In this document: positions 1 through 22,699 of the stretch, piece after piece
Layout of the letters: every line of letters begins with the position of its first letter
Numbering within the stretch: the stretch's first letter is position 1
Assembly (NCBI GenBank): GCA_013821605.1
Contig: JACDGP010000037.1
Location: 1-43,654, forward strand
Reading direction: 5' to 3'
DNA from: Herpetosiphonaceae bacterium
GTDB lineage: Bacteria; Chloroflexota; Chloroflexia; Chloroflexales; Kallotenuaceae
DNA: 43,654 nt
Program-made: the position numbers and the translations under genes
Notes under the pieces: model-generated
What the model saw: the letters and a program-made list of their open reading frames with translations, nothing else
What the model was told of the DNA's origin: nothing
Databases searched by the model: none

Positions 1-2502
1 CGCACGCTGATCGTCCGACCATCGCAGATCGAGCGCGACGCGCCAATAGCTGCGGGGCGCATCATCGCTATAACAGGTCGTGCAACTGTTCTCGCCTAAG
101 CCGCTGACCTGTAAAGGCACAAGCTGGCCGGTTGCTCGATCCAAGCCGATCCACTCCGGTGGCAAGCCTATCCCCGCTTTCCCGTCCAAAGGAGCCTGTG
201 CTACCTGCTGCAACACCGCATAGCTCGAATCGACCAACTGTTGCCAGGGATGTGCCTGATCGACCTCACCGAAGATGCGGTAGGCATAGGGCGCAAAGTA
301 GCTGGGGTTCAGCGGCAAGAGCTGACCATCGCGTGCCCAATTGCCTGCCACCAGATACGGCTTACCGTCCACGGTCACGACCTCCTGATCCCAGATTGAG
401 CCGAGCATATGTCGCGCTGCCGCATCCCACCCCGCTTCGTGCCAGCGCTTATCGGCAAGCAAGAGCGCCAGTGCTGTATCACTATCAGCATCGGCGGCAG
501 TACGCGCGTTGCCGCGGGCAGATGGACTCCAGGTTGCTTGGAGCAGGCCATCCGACCGGAGCATATGTTTTTGACTCCAACTCCATACCTCTTCGAAGCC
601 AGCGCGGTCATCTGACCAGACGGCACGCAGTAGGGCATTAGCCTGAGCTTCGGCCATAACCGGACCACTGGGCTCCACATAGGCCCCATCATGATCGAAG
701 TGCTGGCGAAGATAGGTGGTGCTCACGGCTAACCACGGTTCGTCAGTAGGACCCGCTTGGTCTACTTTCCACAGCGTCAGCCCCTCCCCACCAGTGGCCC
801 ACTGCCGAACAATATGCGCTCCGGCCAGCGCCGGGTGGACGAGCGGAGTAGAGGTCGTATTGTCGGCCGTGGGTTGATCGGGCAGGAGCAGATAATCAAC
901 GGCTTCCCCGACAAGAGCCGCGTTGTCCGTCATAGCATCTGCTGTCGCCTGCATGTTCCGCCGGACGTTGCTAAAAGCACCGCCACCCAAGCCAGGGGCG
1001 CGTAGATCGGTCCAAGTACTGTCACTGGCAATGATTACGCTATCGGCGGGCAGATGTTGCTTGATCCACAACGTAGCTGCGCGCTCGGTTGGTTCGGGAT
1101 TGATCGCATATAACGACTGGAGTTTGCCACGCCCTGCGTAGCCTGCAATCAGCGCGAGAGTCATCAGGGGAGCCAGCAGGTACAGGAGAGGCATACGGCG
1201 ATGCGGGAGGTTGAGCACGGACAAGCGGTTGAGTAGTGGCGCGACCAGCAGCCCGAGATTGAGGCACAGAAAGGGCAGTGCCAGCAGCACAGCGACATCT
1301 ACGACGTTACCGGCGTAGACCAAGTAGGCCAGCGATAGCAGACCCAGCAAGCCGAACACACCTGCCCGGCGGTCTCGCAGGCCACGTCCCAGATTAACCA
1401 GCGTTGCTGCCAGGCCGCCGAGGAGCAGCAGCGGGTCGCGCGGGAACCAATCGGTTCTCACAAGTTGCCAAAATGGAGCCCCAGCGTTCCACAGACTACT
1501 CACAGGTTGGAAGGGCAGGACGGTGCGGAACTCCCCTTGCAGAAGTGTCCCATCGCCATGTAGCAGCGCAAGGAGCGGATACAGGCTGACAACCAACACC
1601 AACGGCAGGAACCAAGCTGCCAAGGTATACAACGCACGGCGGGAGCGGTGCTGCTGCCACAGCAGGACCAACAGCCCAGGCAACAGCAGCATTGTGCTTT
1701 CGTGGGTCAAGAGGGCCACACCAAAACACAGGCCACTGAGCATGAGGCGACTCAAACGGTGCCAGCCGTCGAGCAGCACATTGATGCTGACCAGCGTCCA
1801 CCATACCATGATGCTTTCGGGCAGCACAAAGCGCTGGTACAGGATCGCCAGGGGCGACAGCGAAAAAAGCAATACCACAAAGGCAGCCGCGCTATCACCA
1901 CAGCCGAGCTTACGCGCGATGCGAAACAAGAGCGGGAGCATACCAAGATGCAACAGCAACATAAACACGCGCGCACTTTCGATTGCCGTACCAAAGGTAT
2001 GCGGCCCACCGGTCACTCCTCCCCAGCCAGCCAGCAGCAGCCAGCCGGCAGGCGGCTGGGCGAAGAAATCCGCAGACGTGAGGTGAGCGGCGTGGAGCAA
2101 AGCCCAGGCCCGGGCCACATAGGTACCTTCACCTGCGATCCACTGCTGATCTGGGTAATGAAACATATTCAAGGCGTGGGCAACCAGCCCGACGAGGATC
2201 AGGCCACTCAACAAGATGCGACGTGCCACCACGCGCTGGTCAACTGCACCGGCTTGCCCCAGCCATAACCACGGCAGTCGCACGGTTGGCATAACTTGCG
2301 TACGAAACGGCGATACGTTGGCAATCTGCGTCGGCTGCCACTGGCCAGCTCGTCCCGGCCTATGGAGACTGCTCGGCAGGAACCGGGTGAGCGAGTGCTG
2401 CCGGAACGCTGGCCAATGTTGTGGAATCATATGTGCCAGGGTGCTACGCGTTTTACCCAACTGCAAACGACGATCAAGCTTGCGAGAATACTGTCCATGC
2501 AT
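1..2502 (-). CDS. Membrane GT39-like / GH8-like glycoside hydrolase fusion (3' end off window)
   Basis: I translated this minus-strand frame myself: 834 codons without a stop from ATG at 2502 to the left edge, so the C-terminus is missing. An in-frame TGA lies just upstream of the ATG. Residues about 95-455 are a polytopic membrane region resembling GT-C/GT39 (PMT/ArnT-like) proteins, with an EGTYVARAWAL-type first loop (125-135) and QPPAGW (149-154). Residues about 470-600 form a soluble linker. Residues about 605-834 match glycoside hydrolase family 8: a Glu in AEAQANALLRAVW (E618, candidate acid), DADSD (671-675), NPSYFAPYAYRIF (732-744), PPEWI (781-785) and DDAPRSYWRVALDLRW (813-828, D814 candidate base). 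GH8 enzymes cut beta-1,4 glucans, chitosan or xylan. I infer a membrane-anchored polysaccharide enzyme; substrate and sidedness are unknown. The join of the two families in one frame is unusual. Confidence 0.8.
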   Translation of the reverse strand, partial: MHGQYSRKLDRRLQLGKTRSTLAHMIPQHWPAFRQHSLTRFLPSSLHRPGRAGQWQPTQIANVSPFRTQVMPTVRLPWLWLGQAGAVDQRVVARRILLSGLILVGLVAHALNMFHYPDQQWIAGEGTYVARAWALLHAAHLTSADFFAQPPAGWLLLAGWGGVTGGPHTFGTAIESARVFMLLLHLGMLPLLFRIARKLGCGDSAAAFVVLLFSLSPLAILYQRFVLPESIMVWWTLVSINVLLDGWHRLSRLMLSGLCFGVALLTHESTMLLLPGLLVLLWQQHRSRRALYTLAAWFLPLVLVVSLYPLLALLHGDGTLLQGEFRTVLPFQPVSSLWNAGAPFWQLVRTDWFPRDPLLLLGGLAATLVNLGRGLRDRRAGVFGLLGLLSLAYLVYAGNVVDVAVLLALPFLCLNLGLLVAPLLNRLSVLNLPHRRMPLLYLLAPLMTLALIAGYAGRGKLQSLYAINPEPTERAATLWIKQHLPADSVIIASDSTWTDLRAPGLGGGAFSNVRRNMQATADAMTDNAALVGEAVDYLLLPDQPTADNTTSTPLVHPALAGAHIVRQWATGGEGLTLWKVDQAGPTDEPWLAVSTTYLRQHFDHDGAYVEPSGPVMAEAQANALLRAVWSDDRAGFEEVWSWSQKHMLRSDGLLQATWSPSARGNARTAADADSDTALALLLADKRWHEAGWDAAARHMLGSIWDQEVVTVDGKPYLVAGNWARDGQLLPLNPSYFAPYAYRIFGEVDQAHPWQQLVDSSYAVLQQVAQAPLDGKAGIGLPPEWIGLDRATGQLVPLQVSGLGENSCTTCYSDDAPRSYWRVALDLRWSDDQRA

Positions 2503-2617: not shown

Positions 2618-3295
2618 TCAGCTTCGGAGGTCAGCATCCCACACCACCGGGGCATCTAGCCGGAAGCCGATGCGATGGACGGTCGTCATTAACGGCGGTT
2701 CTTGCCCGCTGGCATGCGCAGTGGCACGCAGATTGCGTCTCAGTTTTGTTACGCAGGCATTGAGTGCGTCTTCGCAGGTCGCGTGGTCATATGGTTGGTT
2801 CCAGACGGCCAAGAAACAGACTTCACGGGTGCAAACCTGGCCCGCATGATTGGCCAGGTACAGTAGGAGGCTGTATTCCAGTGGGCTGAGTGGAACAATA
2901 GTGCCATAGACCATCACCATCCGAGCGTGTGCATTAATCAGCAAGGGCGGCGGTGAAGTGTCAATGGGCATGATCAGCGTTGCTTCTGGATCTGAGAAGA
3001 CCAGCGTTGCAGCGGGTGAACCGAGCGAAATAACGTCGCCGGTGTTCAACTGGTACTCCTGGGTGAGCCGGTTGCCGTTCACGAGTGTACCGTTGACGCT
3101 CCCTTTGTCGATCAGAATGTAGCGATCATGCTGCAACTCGATTACCGCGTGGAGACGTGACACGTTGGGCAAATCAACAGCGATGGTGCAAGAAGCCGAG
3201 CGACCAAGCGTGGTCACCGGCTCATGCAGTGCGATCTCATCCTGCATGCCATTCGCACGTTCCACGAGGAGTGAACCCGGTCGTTTGCGAGTCAT
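2618..3295 (-). CDS. FHA / winged-helix transcriptional regulator
   Basis: A 225-residue cytoplasmic regulator. The N-terminal FHA domain (about 25-95) keeps the phosphothreonine-binding set: GR (31-32), SRLH (46-49) and NGT (68-70). The C-terminal part (about 130-220) is an OmpR/SARP-like winged helix (LSPLEYSLLLYLANHAGQV, then a recognition helix and beta wing near VHRIGFRL). EmbR-type regulators have the opposite order (DNA-binding first, FHA last). The frame is open further upstream, but I chose ATG 3295 because longer starts would run into the divergent kinase gene, leaving a 48-base shared promoter region. I infer that the adjacent kinase phosphorylates it or a partner it binds. Confidence 0.82.
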   Translation of the reverse strand: MTRKRPGSLLVERANGMQDEIALHEPVTTLGRSASCTIAVDLPNVSRLHAVIELQHDRYILIDKGSVNGTLVNGNRLTQEYQLNTGDVISLGSPAATLVFSDPEATLIMPIDTSPPPLLINAHARMVMVYGTIVPLSPLEYSLLLYLANHAGQVCTREVCFLAVWNQPYDHATCEDALNACVTKLRRNLRATAHASGQEPPLMTTVHRIGFRLDAPVVWDADLRS

Positions 3296-3343
3296 ACAAC
3301 GGGATGCAGCAACTTTTGTGCCGTACTTAATACCTAACAACAT

Positions 3344-5254
3344 ATGCAGAATTTGATCGATACCTATCTTGGCCCCTACCGCTTGGTTGAGGTGATTGGT
3401 CGCGGCAGTACGTCGACCGTCTACCAAGCCTATCAGCGCTCCTTAAACCGTTATGTAGCGATCAAGGTGCTACTACCAAGCCTCGATCCGCAATTTACCG
3501 CCCGTTTTGAGCACGAAGCGCAGCTCGTGGCACAGCTGCAACATCCCAATATTCTCCCGATCTATGATTATGGTGAGCAGAGTAACCAGTCATACTTCGT
3601 GATGCAGTATATTCCCAACGGCCTGACGCTCGCCCACCTCATGACGGGCCAGCCGATGGAGCCCGGAATGGCGCTACGCCTGATTATTTCCACATTGGAG
3701 GGGCTAGGCTATGCGCACAACCACGGTGTGATCCATCGCGATATCAAGCCGTCAAATATTTTGCTGCCATCGCCAAATTGGCCGATGCTGGCCGACTGGG
3801 GCATCGCCAAAGTCACCTACGATGACCGACACTTAACACCACCTGGTCAAACAGTTGGGACGGCCGTATATATGGCACCGGAACGGGCGAAAGGACAGCC
3901 CGCCGACCCTCGGACGGATCTCTATGCGGTTGGCATCGTCTTGTACGAACTGCTTACTGGCAAGGTGCCATTCGATGGACCAACGCCGATGACCGTGTTA
4001 GCCAAGCATATTGGGCAAGCACCTCCGTCACCTCGCAGCCTTAACCCCGAGTTGCCGTCAACGCTCGAAGCAGTGCTGCTCCGAGCTCTCGAGAAGGATC
4101 CGGCGCAACGTTTCCAGCGAGCCGAGGAGATGGTAGCCGCTCTCCAGCAGGTGGTTATCATGCACCCTTTACCGGTGCAGCCGCTACCGACCCCCGTCAC
4201 AACCACTACCCCTGCAACAGGCTACGAGACCGGCAGGCTCGTAGCGCCGCCTGTATCCGCTGCCCCGAGCACGCCCAGACCGGGATATCGCAGTGGGGTA
4301 GGCTCACGCCTGGCCGCTCTGGCTCTCATTCTAGCCATCCTGGCGGCTTCCGCCGCACTCCTGCTGAATCAGCGACAGCGAGTAGTAGCCGAGGGCGGTC
4401 GGCCAACATCGTCCACAGCAACCACCACGCAGGCCACCGTCACGCAAGGCTTAGTGGTGCTCACGACCACTACTGCAACAGATACCGCCCCTGTACCGCC
4501 GGACCCAGAAGCAACGCTAGCACCCGCGGCAACGCTGCTGACGCTAACAACCGTGACACCATCCGCCCTACCAACCACCATCCCACCGGTCGTGATCGAT
4601 GTACCAACCCAACTCCCAACCACTACCACTGAACCACCAACCCTGGTGCCCGTAGCCCCAGTCGTCGCAACACCCGTAGTGCCAACTGCCGTCCCGGTGG
4701 TGCCGACGGCGAAGCCTGCTATCCCAACTGCAGTACTGGTCGCCACAGCCCGACCGACAGCCGTTGCCCCAGCACCGCCTGCAGCCTCACCCCTACCGGC
4801 CGGGCCACTCATGGGTCGTATCGAAGATACCGAATGGCGCGGCGGCTACGTACGGCCCGGCCATGCACCATACAAAGGACATACAGCAACCTGGATCTAC
4901 GGTACGAATACCCCTTACCAGACGATGGCCACGACCATTTTATTACCTCTGGCCGGGCAGCCCCAAGGTACAGCGAGCTTACTGATCTATGGCATGGACT
5001 CCGAAGGGGCGGGCAAAACGTTGATCAGCATCAGCGTCAACGGCCAGCAAATTTATAACGGCTTGGACCCGTTACCGAACGACGATGACTCCTCACCTGC
5101 TGGCAATTGGGGTAGCTATACTTGGACCTTTAACGCTGGCCTGATCCATAACGGTCCAAATACAATCACCATCAGCAACCTGTCACCGGGTCGGGTGGGC
5201 TTACCACCCTGGTTCATGCTTGACTATGCTGATCTTTCGTTTGTAGCACCCTAA
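3344..5254 (+). CDS. Transmembrane Ser/Thr protein kinase with extracytoplasmic beta-sandwich sensor
   Basis: A 636-residue Hanks-type kinase. Catalytic domain about 11-270: glycine loop GRGSTSTVYQAY (19-30), ATP-binding K41, Glu in FEHEAQ, HRDIKPSN (131-138), metal-binding DWG (151-153) where most kinases have DFG, APE (178-180). After a juxtamembrane linker there is one membrane helix (about 322-341), a long Thr/Pro/Val-rich extracytoplasmic stalk (about 350-485), and a C-terminal domain (about 490-636) that looks like a galactose-binding or carbohydrate-binding beta-sandwich, ending in MLDYADLSFVAP. There are no PASTA repeats. No clear Shine-Dalgarno precedes ATG 3344. It is divergent from an FHA regulator and converges, six bases apart, with an SH3-like protein gene. 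I infer a surface-sensing kinase; its ligand is unknown. Confidence 0.9.
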   Translation: MQNLIDTYLGPYRLVEVIGRGSTSTVYQAYQRSLNRYVAIKVLLPSLDPQFTARFEHEAQLVAQLQHPNILPIYDYGEQSNQSYFVMQYIPNGLTLAHLMTGQPMEPGMALRLIISTLEGLGYAHNHGVIHRDIKPSNILLPSPNWPMLADWGIAKVTYDDRHLTPPGQTVGTAVYMAPERAKGQPADPRTDLYAVGIVLYELLTGKVPFDGPTPMTVLAKHIGQAPPSPRSLNPELPSTLEAVLLRALEKDPAQRFQRAEEMVAALQQVVIMHPLPVQPLPTPVTTTTPATGYETGRLVAPPVSAAPSTPRPGYRSGVGSRLAALALILAILAASAALLLNQRQRVVAEGGRPTSSTATTTQATVTQGLVVLTTTTATDTAPVPPDPEATLAPAATLLTLTTVTPSALPTTIPPVVIDVPTQLPTTTTEPPTLVPVAPVVATPVVPTAVPVVPTAKPAIPTAVLVATARPTAVAPAPPAASPLPAGPLMGRIEDTEWRGGYVRPGHAPYKGHTATWIYGTNTPYQTMATTILLPLAGQPQGTASLLIYGMDSEGAGKTLISISVNGQQIYNGLDPLPNDDDSSPAGNWGSYTWTFNAGLIHNGPNTITISNLSPGRVGLPPWFMLDYADLSFVAP

Positions 5255-20515: not shown

Positions 20516-22699
20516 ATGGAACAACCAAGAACGGCCCGGCGACAGTTTGTAAAGTTCGCCTTTTGGAAACTCGATCCGGCCTGGCGTAACCTGCCTAGTG
20601 CGGAGCATGAACGCGGCAAGCAGGCCTTCGTGGAAATCATCACGCAATGGGCCGAGCGGATTGTGTTACGTACCTATACGTTGGTTGGCGTCCGTGGCGA
20701 CGTTGATATGTTGCTATGGCTCGTGAGCGAGCGGCTAGAAGATTTTCAGCAATTGCACACTGAACTCTTGAGTACCCCGCTCGGTTCGTACCTAACGAGC
20801 CCCTACTCGTATCTCGCGACGACCAAGCGCTCGATGTATGTTGACAAGTATGCGACCGAGGAAGAAGCGAAGCGGCGCGATATTATTGTTCCCGGTCAGA
20901 ATAAATATTTGTTTGTATACCCGTTTGTTAAGACCCGCAGTTGGTACGCCCTGTCTGCGGAAGAGCGCCAGCAGATGATGGACGAGCACATTCGAGTCGG
21001 GCGCCAATACCCCGATGTCAAGCTCAATACGACCTACTCATTTGGTCTTGACGATCAGGAGTTTGTTGTCGCCTTCGAGACCGATGATCCGATGCGCTTT
21101 GTTGATCTGTTGATGGAGTTGCGCGAAACGGCGGCTAGCAGCTATACCTTGCGCGATACACCAACCTTTACCTGTATCGCCACACCCGTAGCGGCCATGC
21201 TTGATAGTTTAGGTGGGGTACAAGCTGCTGTTGCTGATCATGAACCGCTGCCAGAAGCGCCGCCAGTTGCTCCTGCACCTGCTAACGTTTCGACGTCCAA
21301 CTCCACAACGACATCGGTGGCTCAGCCGGTTACTGGTTTTGTACAAGTCTGCACTCAGGATGAAGTGCCCCAAGGAAGCTCAAAGCTCGTCGTCTATACG
21401 GGTGAGCAGCTCGCACTATTCCACACGACCAACGGCTGGTATGCGCTTGAAAATCGTTGTTCACATGCCCGTGGTCCGCTGGTCGACGGCGAAGTCAAGG
21501 ATGGGCACATCGTCTGCCCGTGGCACTCGGCTGAGTTCGACCTCCAAACAGGTGCGGCCTTGTGCAAGCCGGCCCGTGGACCGGTACAGGCCTATGCAGT
21601 CAAGCTCGACGGCGATGCGGTCCTTGTTGGACCGCAGGCGACCCTGGTTGCAGACCCCGCCCACGCCGATCTGCCCCCCAGTCTCGAGGAGCATCTTGAC
21701 GGGAACGACCGCAAGTTGCTTAATATTTTGCAGTGGGATTTTCCCGTCCTGCCGCGGCCCTGGGAAGCGATGGGCGAAATGCTTGGCGAGAGCGAGCAGG
21801 CTGTTATGGATCGTGTCCAACGTTTGCGCGATATGGGTATCGTGCGTCAAATTTCGGCGATCTTCGATACACGTCGCCTGGGCTATAAATCCAGTCTAGT
21901 TGCAGTACGCGTCGCTCCCGAGCAGCTTGACGAAGCCGCCGCGATCATTAATCAGCATCCCGGCGTCTCGCATAACTATCGACGCGACCACTACTTCAAT
22001 ATGTGGTTCACCATCGCCGTCCCGCCGGGCGTCGTGCTCGAAGACGAACTTGGGAAGTTGACCGAGCGTGCTGGCGTGGAAGTCGTACGCATGCTACCAA
22101 CGTTGAAGCTATACAAGATCGCGGTCAAGCTCAACATGGAGCAGGACGAAACGAAGGTCGGCAAAGACGATGCAACGTGGAGCAAGACCAAGGAGGCACG
22201 GACCTTAACTGAGCATGATAAAGAGTTGATTCGCGTCGTTCAGGAGGATATGCCGCTCATTGGAGACCCGTTTGCGCAGATGGCACAGCGGGTAGGGACG
22301 ACGGAAGCAGAACTCTTCGACTGGCTTGCCGAAATGCAGTCAATGGGCTACCTGCGACGGGTTGCCGGTATCTTACGCCATCAGAAGGCGGGCTTTGGTG
22401 ACAATGGCATGGTCACGTGGAAGGTACCGGAAGATCAGGTCGAAGCTGCAGGCAAAATCATGGCTTCGTATGCGGCCGTCTCACACTGCTATCTGCGCCC
22501 GGTCTATCCCGACTGGCCATATAACTTGTTCTCGATGATCCACGCCCGCAGTCGTCAAAACGCCGAGGAGATCGCAACCGAGATGGCAAAGGAGTTGGCA
22601 CCGTTGGGCGTTACCGAGTATGTCATCTTATACTCCTCGAAAGAGTTCAAGAAGGAACGCGTACGGTACTTCGTGGAGGAAGAGACCAAGACGTCGTAA
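20516..22699 (+). CDS. HemQ (coproheme decarboxylase) - Rieske - AhbA/AhbB siroheme decarboxylase fusion
   Basis: A 727-residue protein of four parts. (1) Residues 1-about 230 are ChdC/HemQ of the chlorite dismutase family: YPFVKTRSWY (135-144) with catalytic-type Y135, MMDEHIRVGRQYP (154-166) with axial-ligand H158, and TTYSFGLDDQEFVVAFE then YTLRDTPTFTCI. (2) After a Pro/Ala/Ser/Thr linker (about 240-270), a Rieske domain (about 272-372) with C315-S-H317 and C334-P-W-H337. (3) Residues about 396-540 are the first Lrp/AsnC-like siroheme decarboxylase unit (VRQISAIFDTRRLGY, VSHNYRRDHYFNMWF). (4) Residues about 563-715 are the second unit (YLRRVAGILRHQKAGF, VSHCYLRPVYPDWPYNLF). Known AhbA/AhbB convert siroheme to 12,18-didecarboxysiroheme; ChdC turns coproheme into heme b. 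One chain therefore holds an early and the last step of a siroheme-dependent route. AhbC and AhbD are not in the window. It ends the operon before a hairpin. Confidence 0.9.
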   Translation: MEQPRTARRQFVKFAFWKLDPAWRNLPSAEHERGKQAFVEIITQWAERIVLRTYTLVGVRGDVDMLLWLVSERLEDFQQLHTELLSTPLGSYLTSPYSYLATTKRSMYVDKYATEEEAKRRDIIVPGQNKYLFVYPFVKTRSWYALSAEERQQMMDEHIRVGRQYPDVKLNTTYSFGLDDQEFVVAFETDDPMRFVDLLMELRETAASSYTLRDTPTFTCIATPVAAMLDSLGGVQAAVADHEPLPEAPPVAPAPANVSTSNSTTTSVAQPVTGFVQVCTQDEVPQGSSKLVVYTGEQLALFHTTNGWYALENRCSHARGPLVDGEVKDGHIVCPWHSAEFDLQTGAALCKPARGPVQAYAVKLDGDAVLVGPQATLVADPAHADLPPSLEEHLDGNDRKLLNILQWDFPVLPRPWEAMGEMLGESEQAVMDRVQRLRDMGIVRQISAIFDTRRLGYKSSLVAVRVAPEQLDEAAAIINQHPGVSHNYRRDHYFNMWFTIAVPPGVVLEDELGKLTERAGVEVVRMLPTLKLYKIAVKLNMEQDETKVGKDDATWSKTKEARTLTEHDKELIRVVQEDMPLIGDPFAQMAQRVGTTEAELFDWLAEMQSMGYLRRVAGILRHQKAGFGDNGMVTWKVPEDQVEAAGKIMASYAAVSHCYLRPVYPDWPYNLFSMIHARSRQNAEEIATEMAKELAPLGVTEYVILYSSKEFKKERVRYFVEEETKTS

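Follow-up and report, generated by a model that had tools for sequence, protein, structure and literature searches.

EL1 of GT-C enzymes, like the domain that follows the membrane part, is located outside the cytoplasm, and D55/E56 of ArnT represent the acidic EL1 motif with its catalytic aspartate. Within the GT-C/PMT clan the EL1 aspartate, the basic residue of EL1 and the lysine of the KE motif have been described as catalytic or donor-contact (donor-phosphate) positions (PMC7801869). Multi-component transmembrane glycosylation systems, in which a GT-A, a GtrA flippase and a GT-C protein act together, were also reviewed for Gram-positive bacteria (PMC8035078). A fusion of a GT-C protein with a GH8 domain, or an operon of GT2, GT-C and GH8 genes, was not found to be described in the literature searched, although either may still have been published. 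The locus examined here lies at one end of a window of 43,654 nucleotides, which is the entire contig C126 of a 5.88 Mb Chloroflexota genome in 259 contigs (99.6% complete).

It was proposed earlier, from the letters alone, that the minus strand holds a frame of 834 codons at 1..2502, open to the window edge, and the ORF reading confirmed this stop-free frame. It was further suggested that the C-terminus be sought by extension to the left. C126 and contig C35 share their first 147 bases (1..147 of the window) on opposite strands, with two mismatches, and when the two contigs were joined at this overlap the frame continued to a 947-residue protein followed by a stop codon. The C-terminus is found at L003 148-489, and its stop overlaps by four bases the start of a downstream FAD-binding flavoprotein gene (L003 486-2147). 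Though inferred from the overlap, the join appears well supported, because the 113 residues gained from C35 align with near relatives at 44-48% identity. The other end of the protein is less certain. In an AlphaFold2 model of the 834 residues, positions 1-85 had a pLDDT below 50, and sequence conservation among the relatives begins near residue 90. Because of these two features translation may begin at M71 (2290..2292, minus strand), with residues 1-70 perhaps untranslated; no clear ribosome site was seen at M71, and this start is uncertain. The frame first reported is real, but its N-terminal 70 residues may not be part of the protein.

Other genes of the window deserve brief mention. At the end of a run of heme biosynthesis genes a 727-residue frame (20516-22699, plus strand) encodes one chain with an unusual combination of parts: a domain of the chlorite dismutase/HemQ type, a Rieske domain and two units that resemble siroheme decarboxylase (NirDL HTH plus AsnC). 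A gene for an FHA plus winged-helix protein (2618-3427, minus strand) and one for a Ser/Thr protein kinase (3344-5254, plus strand) are divergent, with predicted starts that overlap by 84 bases.

The sequence-only reading had divided the fusion protein into an N-terminal GT-C-like membrane domain and a C-terminal GH8 domain, and had named profile searches and structure prediction as the means of checking it; both gave the same division. Pfam PMT_2 (PF13231) was matched over residues 170-305 (E 2.1e-7, 31.7 bits against a cut-off of 26.1) and Pfam GH8 (PF01270) over residues 616-831 (E 9.9e-25, 87.7 bits against a cut-off of 24). In the predicted structure (834 residues, mean pLDDT 79.7) the first half resembled Pmt1-Pmt2 over residues 87-469 (Z 23.5) and ArnT over residues 92-581 (Z 22.0), as expected of a GT-C fold. 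The second half, which in the model ends at residue 834, has a predicted (alpha/alpha)6 fold and resembled Cel10 (Z 26.1), CelA (Z 24.8) and BcsZ (Z 23.6). A full-length structure model of the near relative L082 had a mean pLDDT of 83.6. On this basis the protein consists of a GT-C membrane domain (residues 89-467; 1102..2238, minus strand), an extracytoplasmic subdomain similar to the periplasmic domain of ArnT, the alignment with which extends to residue 581 (residues 468-581; 760..1101, minus strand), and a GH8 domain from residue 590 onward (1..735, minus strand) that continues on C35. As EL1 and the post-membrane domain of the GT-C fold are extracytoplasmic, the GH8 half should face outwards.

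The catalytic acids that had been considered plausible for the GH8 half could be aligned with those of CelA: E618 (649..651) with the general acid E95, D671 (490..492) with the active-site residue D152, and D814 (61..63) with the general base D278, all on the minus strand. The sequence of 1kwf, with Q at the acid position, was consistent with the register of this alignment. This GH8 domain is the sole GH8 in its genome. With both the family profile and the complete catalytic set in place, the GH8 half is most likely a hydrolase of the beta-1,4-glucanase type.

The state of the GT-C half is different. Its EL1 motif reads I-A-G-E-G (residues 122-126; 2125..2139, minus strand) in place of x-D-D-E-G, so that G124 (codon GGT, 2131-2133, minus strand) occupies the position of the catalytic aspartate, the role of which is described in PMC7801869. 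On the same strand, the EL1 histidine of the DHAP motif is replaced by Q149 (2056..2058), the conserved aspartate of the LLDN motif by E229 (1816..1818), and the lysine of the KE motif, a donor-phosphate contact in GT-C relatives (PMC7801869), by H267 (1702..1704). The altered acidic pair, GEG for DE, had been noticed from the sequence, and the comparison with relatives upheld it: the position of G124 is an aspartate in 28 of 28 relatives, a count that takes only loci from protein or profile searches, since the pattern used for the genome scan included [DG]EG and the motif counts from scanned loci are thereby biased. There are 39 strongly conserved GT-C columns, of which the window protein spans 36 and deviates at 8, while any relative deviates at no more than 5. 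Nor is GEG for DEG the effect of a single base, as the residues around it and three further conserved positions in the motifs are altered as well; a second sequence of the window species, by which these changes could be confirmed, was not found. E125 and E268 are retained. The protein therefore has the profile and the fold of a GT39 / PMT_2-type transferase, but with G124-E125 it lacks the acidic EL1 motif with its catalytic aspartate, and with Q149 and H267 it lacks the donor-phosphate contacts. This suggests that the transferase activity of the GT-C half has been lost, and the replacements in EL1, in LLDN and at the KE position lend support to the earlier proposal that the membrane part might do no more than anchor the protein.

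The fusion itself is not unique, and as judged from sequence comparisons is a conserved family across phyla. Homology to the window protein extends over the whole length of the relatives, with 32% identity to two full-length fusions and, for L082, 46% identity in the GT-C half and 49% in the GH8 half. In a profile search at the level of the class, full-length or partial relatives were found in 15 of 158 genomes, and at the level of the phylum in 41 of 400. A scan of named genomes located the GT-C–GH8 fusion also in Chloroflexota and in several Patescibacteria (records named Levyibacteriota, Roizmanbacteria, Woesebacteria, Magasanikbacteria and Patescibacteria), and Actinomycetota, for example Mycobacterium and Arthrobacter, were found to carry GT2, GT-C and GH8 as unfused neighbouring genes. 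In the Ktedonobacteria loci read there were GT-C genes only and no GH8. In searches of NCBIfam the window fusion, L082, L070, the actinobacterial genes and the tested GT2s all scored below every cut-off.

In the loci of the relatives a GT2 gene is located directly upstream of the GT-C gene, often with an overlap of a few bases. This partner GT2 contains Pfam PF13641 and PF13632 and a QRTRWNQG-type motif, and its profile matches the cellulose synthase BcsA (E 3e-15). It was present directly upstream in every other fusion locus with enough sequence, and for L060, which is on a short contig, it was found on another contig of the same genome beside the missing N-terminal piece. In the class survey the partner GT2 was detected at E below 1e-170 in 11 genomes, these being all 10 other fusion genomes and one GT-C-only genome, and the best match in the window genome had an E of only 2.2e-5. 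No GT2 gene was found in the window or on C35, the directly upstream position included. Since a generic GT2 family search gave 22 matches in the window genome, this genome is searchable for such genes. With 259 contigs, a partner may nevertheless be hidden in an assembly gap. Four GT-C-only loci, three from Ktedonobacteraceae and one from Trebonia, have no adjacent GT2 but do have DE, which indicates that losing the GT2 neighbour is not in itself enough to make the motif disappear; the link of the fusion, or of its GT-C part, with an adjacent GT2 is a strong one that has exceptions. Some loci (L062, L066) contain GtrA-like and polyprenyl-sugar-type GT2 modules, either fused or adjacent, which would fit a lipid-linked donor.

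Several Patescibacteria have a GT2 partner in which an extra N-terminal GT2 domain (PF00535) and the synthase domain form one chain (L070 5676-7889, L072 5848-7971, L076 742-3021 and L092 5750-7918). The Gram-positive XrtG system was considered as an identity for the cassette and was rejected, as the weak NCBIfam matches of the GT2 (TIGR03111, NF053846) were all far below cut-off; the XrtG literature retrieved contained no GT-C–GH8 fusion.

Decay of one half is not restricted to the window. In approximately half of the other fusions first aligned (L056-L060, L062-L065 and L072) at least one GH8 catalytic residue has been lost; L056-L059, four of their number, have a second, intact GH8 downstream. 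In the fusions L182 and L183 the GH8 and GT-C motifs are both intact. The window protein is the reverse case, with GT-C residues lost and GH8 residues kept, and its rate of change follows the same division. In comparison to L082, unique changes in the GT-C half numbered 72 versus 39 (chi2 9.8) with L066 as outgroup and 75 versus 46 (chi2 7.0) with L061, while with L070 the difference (51 versus 41) was not significant, so that the excess was significant with two of three outgroups. No excess was seen in the GH8 half (33 versus 23). In L056, whose GH8 is damaged, the excess is in the GH8 half instead.

In L056-L059 a conserved protein of 690-915 residues is encoded between the fusion and the second GH8 (L056 14812-16887, L057 6279-8372, L058 14247-16337 and L059 11194-13941). 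No Pfam match was obtained for the two that were scanned; by eye the N-terminal part is like a further GT-C protein, and one of these linker proteins is proline-rich.

Taken together, we propose, with a probability of roughly two in three, that the window protein is the relic of a cassette for assembling and trimming a polysaccharide and is today a GH8 glucanase held at the membrane by a GT-C part that is no longer active. In the relatives, a processive GT2 synthase would make and export a polysaccharide, the GT-C protein would modify this polymer on the outer side of the membrane, using a sugar carried on a lipid, and the GH8 would trim the polymer in the way that BcsZ trims cellulose. In Chloroflexota and Patescibacteria the last two components are a single protein, and in the lineage of the window the GT2 and the catalytic and donor-binding residues of the GT-C half would have been lost and the GH8 catalytic set kept. 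What is left would be an outward-facing, tethered hydrolase of the beta-1,4-glucanase type, for which the GT-C fold may serve as an anchor and perhaps as a holder of glycan. The sequence-only reading had proposed the building and trimming, or the anchoring, of one surface glycan by the two joined domains. This agrees with the relatives, with their upstream GT2 and intact GT-C motif, but fits poorly here, where the GT-C residues are replaced and the partner GT2 is absent; the idea of building and trimming suits the fusion family rather than the window member.

That the window protein might still be a working bifunctional enzyme, its GT-C half transferring a lipid-linked sugar to a surface glycan which the GH8 half trims, is in line with the entire GT-C fold being kept, with the presence of E125 and E268, and with relatives in which the adjacent GT2 suits such a picture. 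It is nevertheless quite improbable, given that other residues stand in place of the EL1 aspartate and histidine, the LLDN aspartate and the KE lysine, and that the genome has no partner GT2. The same loss of the GT2 and degradation of the GT-C active site would be expected if the whole gene were a functionless relic in decay. We regard this as unlikely, as 947 codons remain open, the GH8 catalytic residues are intact in a half that shows no excess of change, and the end of the gene shares four bases with the start of the next one, as would be the case in a translated operon.

It might also be argued that the GH8 half is not a hydrolase but a module for glycan binding or transglycosylation by which a polymer is anchored at the membrane, considering that about half of the other fusions keep the domain with broken catalytic residues, which implies a use for it without cutting. 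The complete set of E618, D671 and D814, in a genome without any other GH8, makes this an improbable account of the window protein. An artefact of assembly or sequencing, in the fusion or in the odd residues, is hardly credible: the gene does lie at a contig end, and the overlap with C35 contains two mismatches, but both domains lie within one contig and in one frame, independent genomes from two phyla carry the same fusion, and the residue changes are scattered over several codons. The reading as a tethered glucanase on a dead GT-C anchor is therefore the one we prefer.

Beyond the window member, we see about even chances for a broader proposition, namely that a so far undescribed GT2/GT-C/GH8 polysaccharide cassette spans Actinomycetota, Chloroflexota and Patescibacteria, that in two of these phyla the transferase and the hydrolase are one protein acting on the polymer that emerges from the synthase, and that evolution can switch off either half, the GH8 where a second GH8 is present and the GT-C where, as in the window, the synthase is gone. 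This wider cassette is of more interest than the window member. Gene order and fusion both link the extracytoplasmic transferase and the glycan hydrolase with a single polymer, and the role of BcsZ-like hydrolases becomes testable outside cellulose operons. Patescibacteria are very small and mostly uncultured bacteria, and since they carry the cassette it points to a surface polysaccharide in this group. The window gene may in turn be viewed as a natural deletion experiment in which the synthase has gone, the transferase decays and the hydrolase stays.

Among known systems, the GH8 endoglucanases of cellulose synthase operons, including BcsZ (NF008305; PDB 3qxq, 5gy3, 1cem), share the fold and catalytic residues of the window GH8, and as with BcsZ the GH8 gene of the relatives adjoins that of a processive GT2 synthase. 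Unlike BcsZ, the window GH8 is tethered to a GT-C membrane protein, in a genome without the GT2 of the cassette, and it scored 67.2 bits, for a domain that ends at residue 834, against the BcsZ NCBIfam equivalog cut-off of 299, with full-length relatives (100.5 and 135.3 bits) far below it too. ArnT, PMT and other GT-C transferases (PDB 5f15, 6p25; PF13231) have the same membrane fold as the window protein, which also has an ArnT-like extracytoplasmic subdomain, but in contrast to ArnT and PMT its catalytic aspartate, EL1 histidine and KE lysine are replaced and it bears a GH8 domain. Like the multi-component transmembrane glycosylation systems (PMC8035078), some relatives (L062, L066) have a GT-C beside GT2 and GtrA-like modules; unlike in those systems, the neighbouring GT2 bears a QxxRW-type motif, as processive synthases do, and the cassette includes a GH8 hydrolase.
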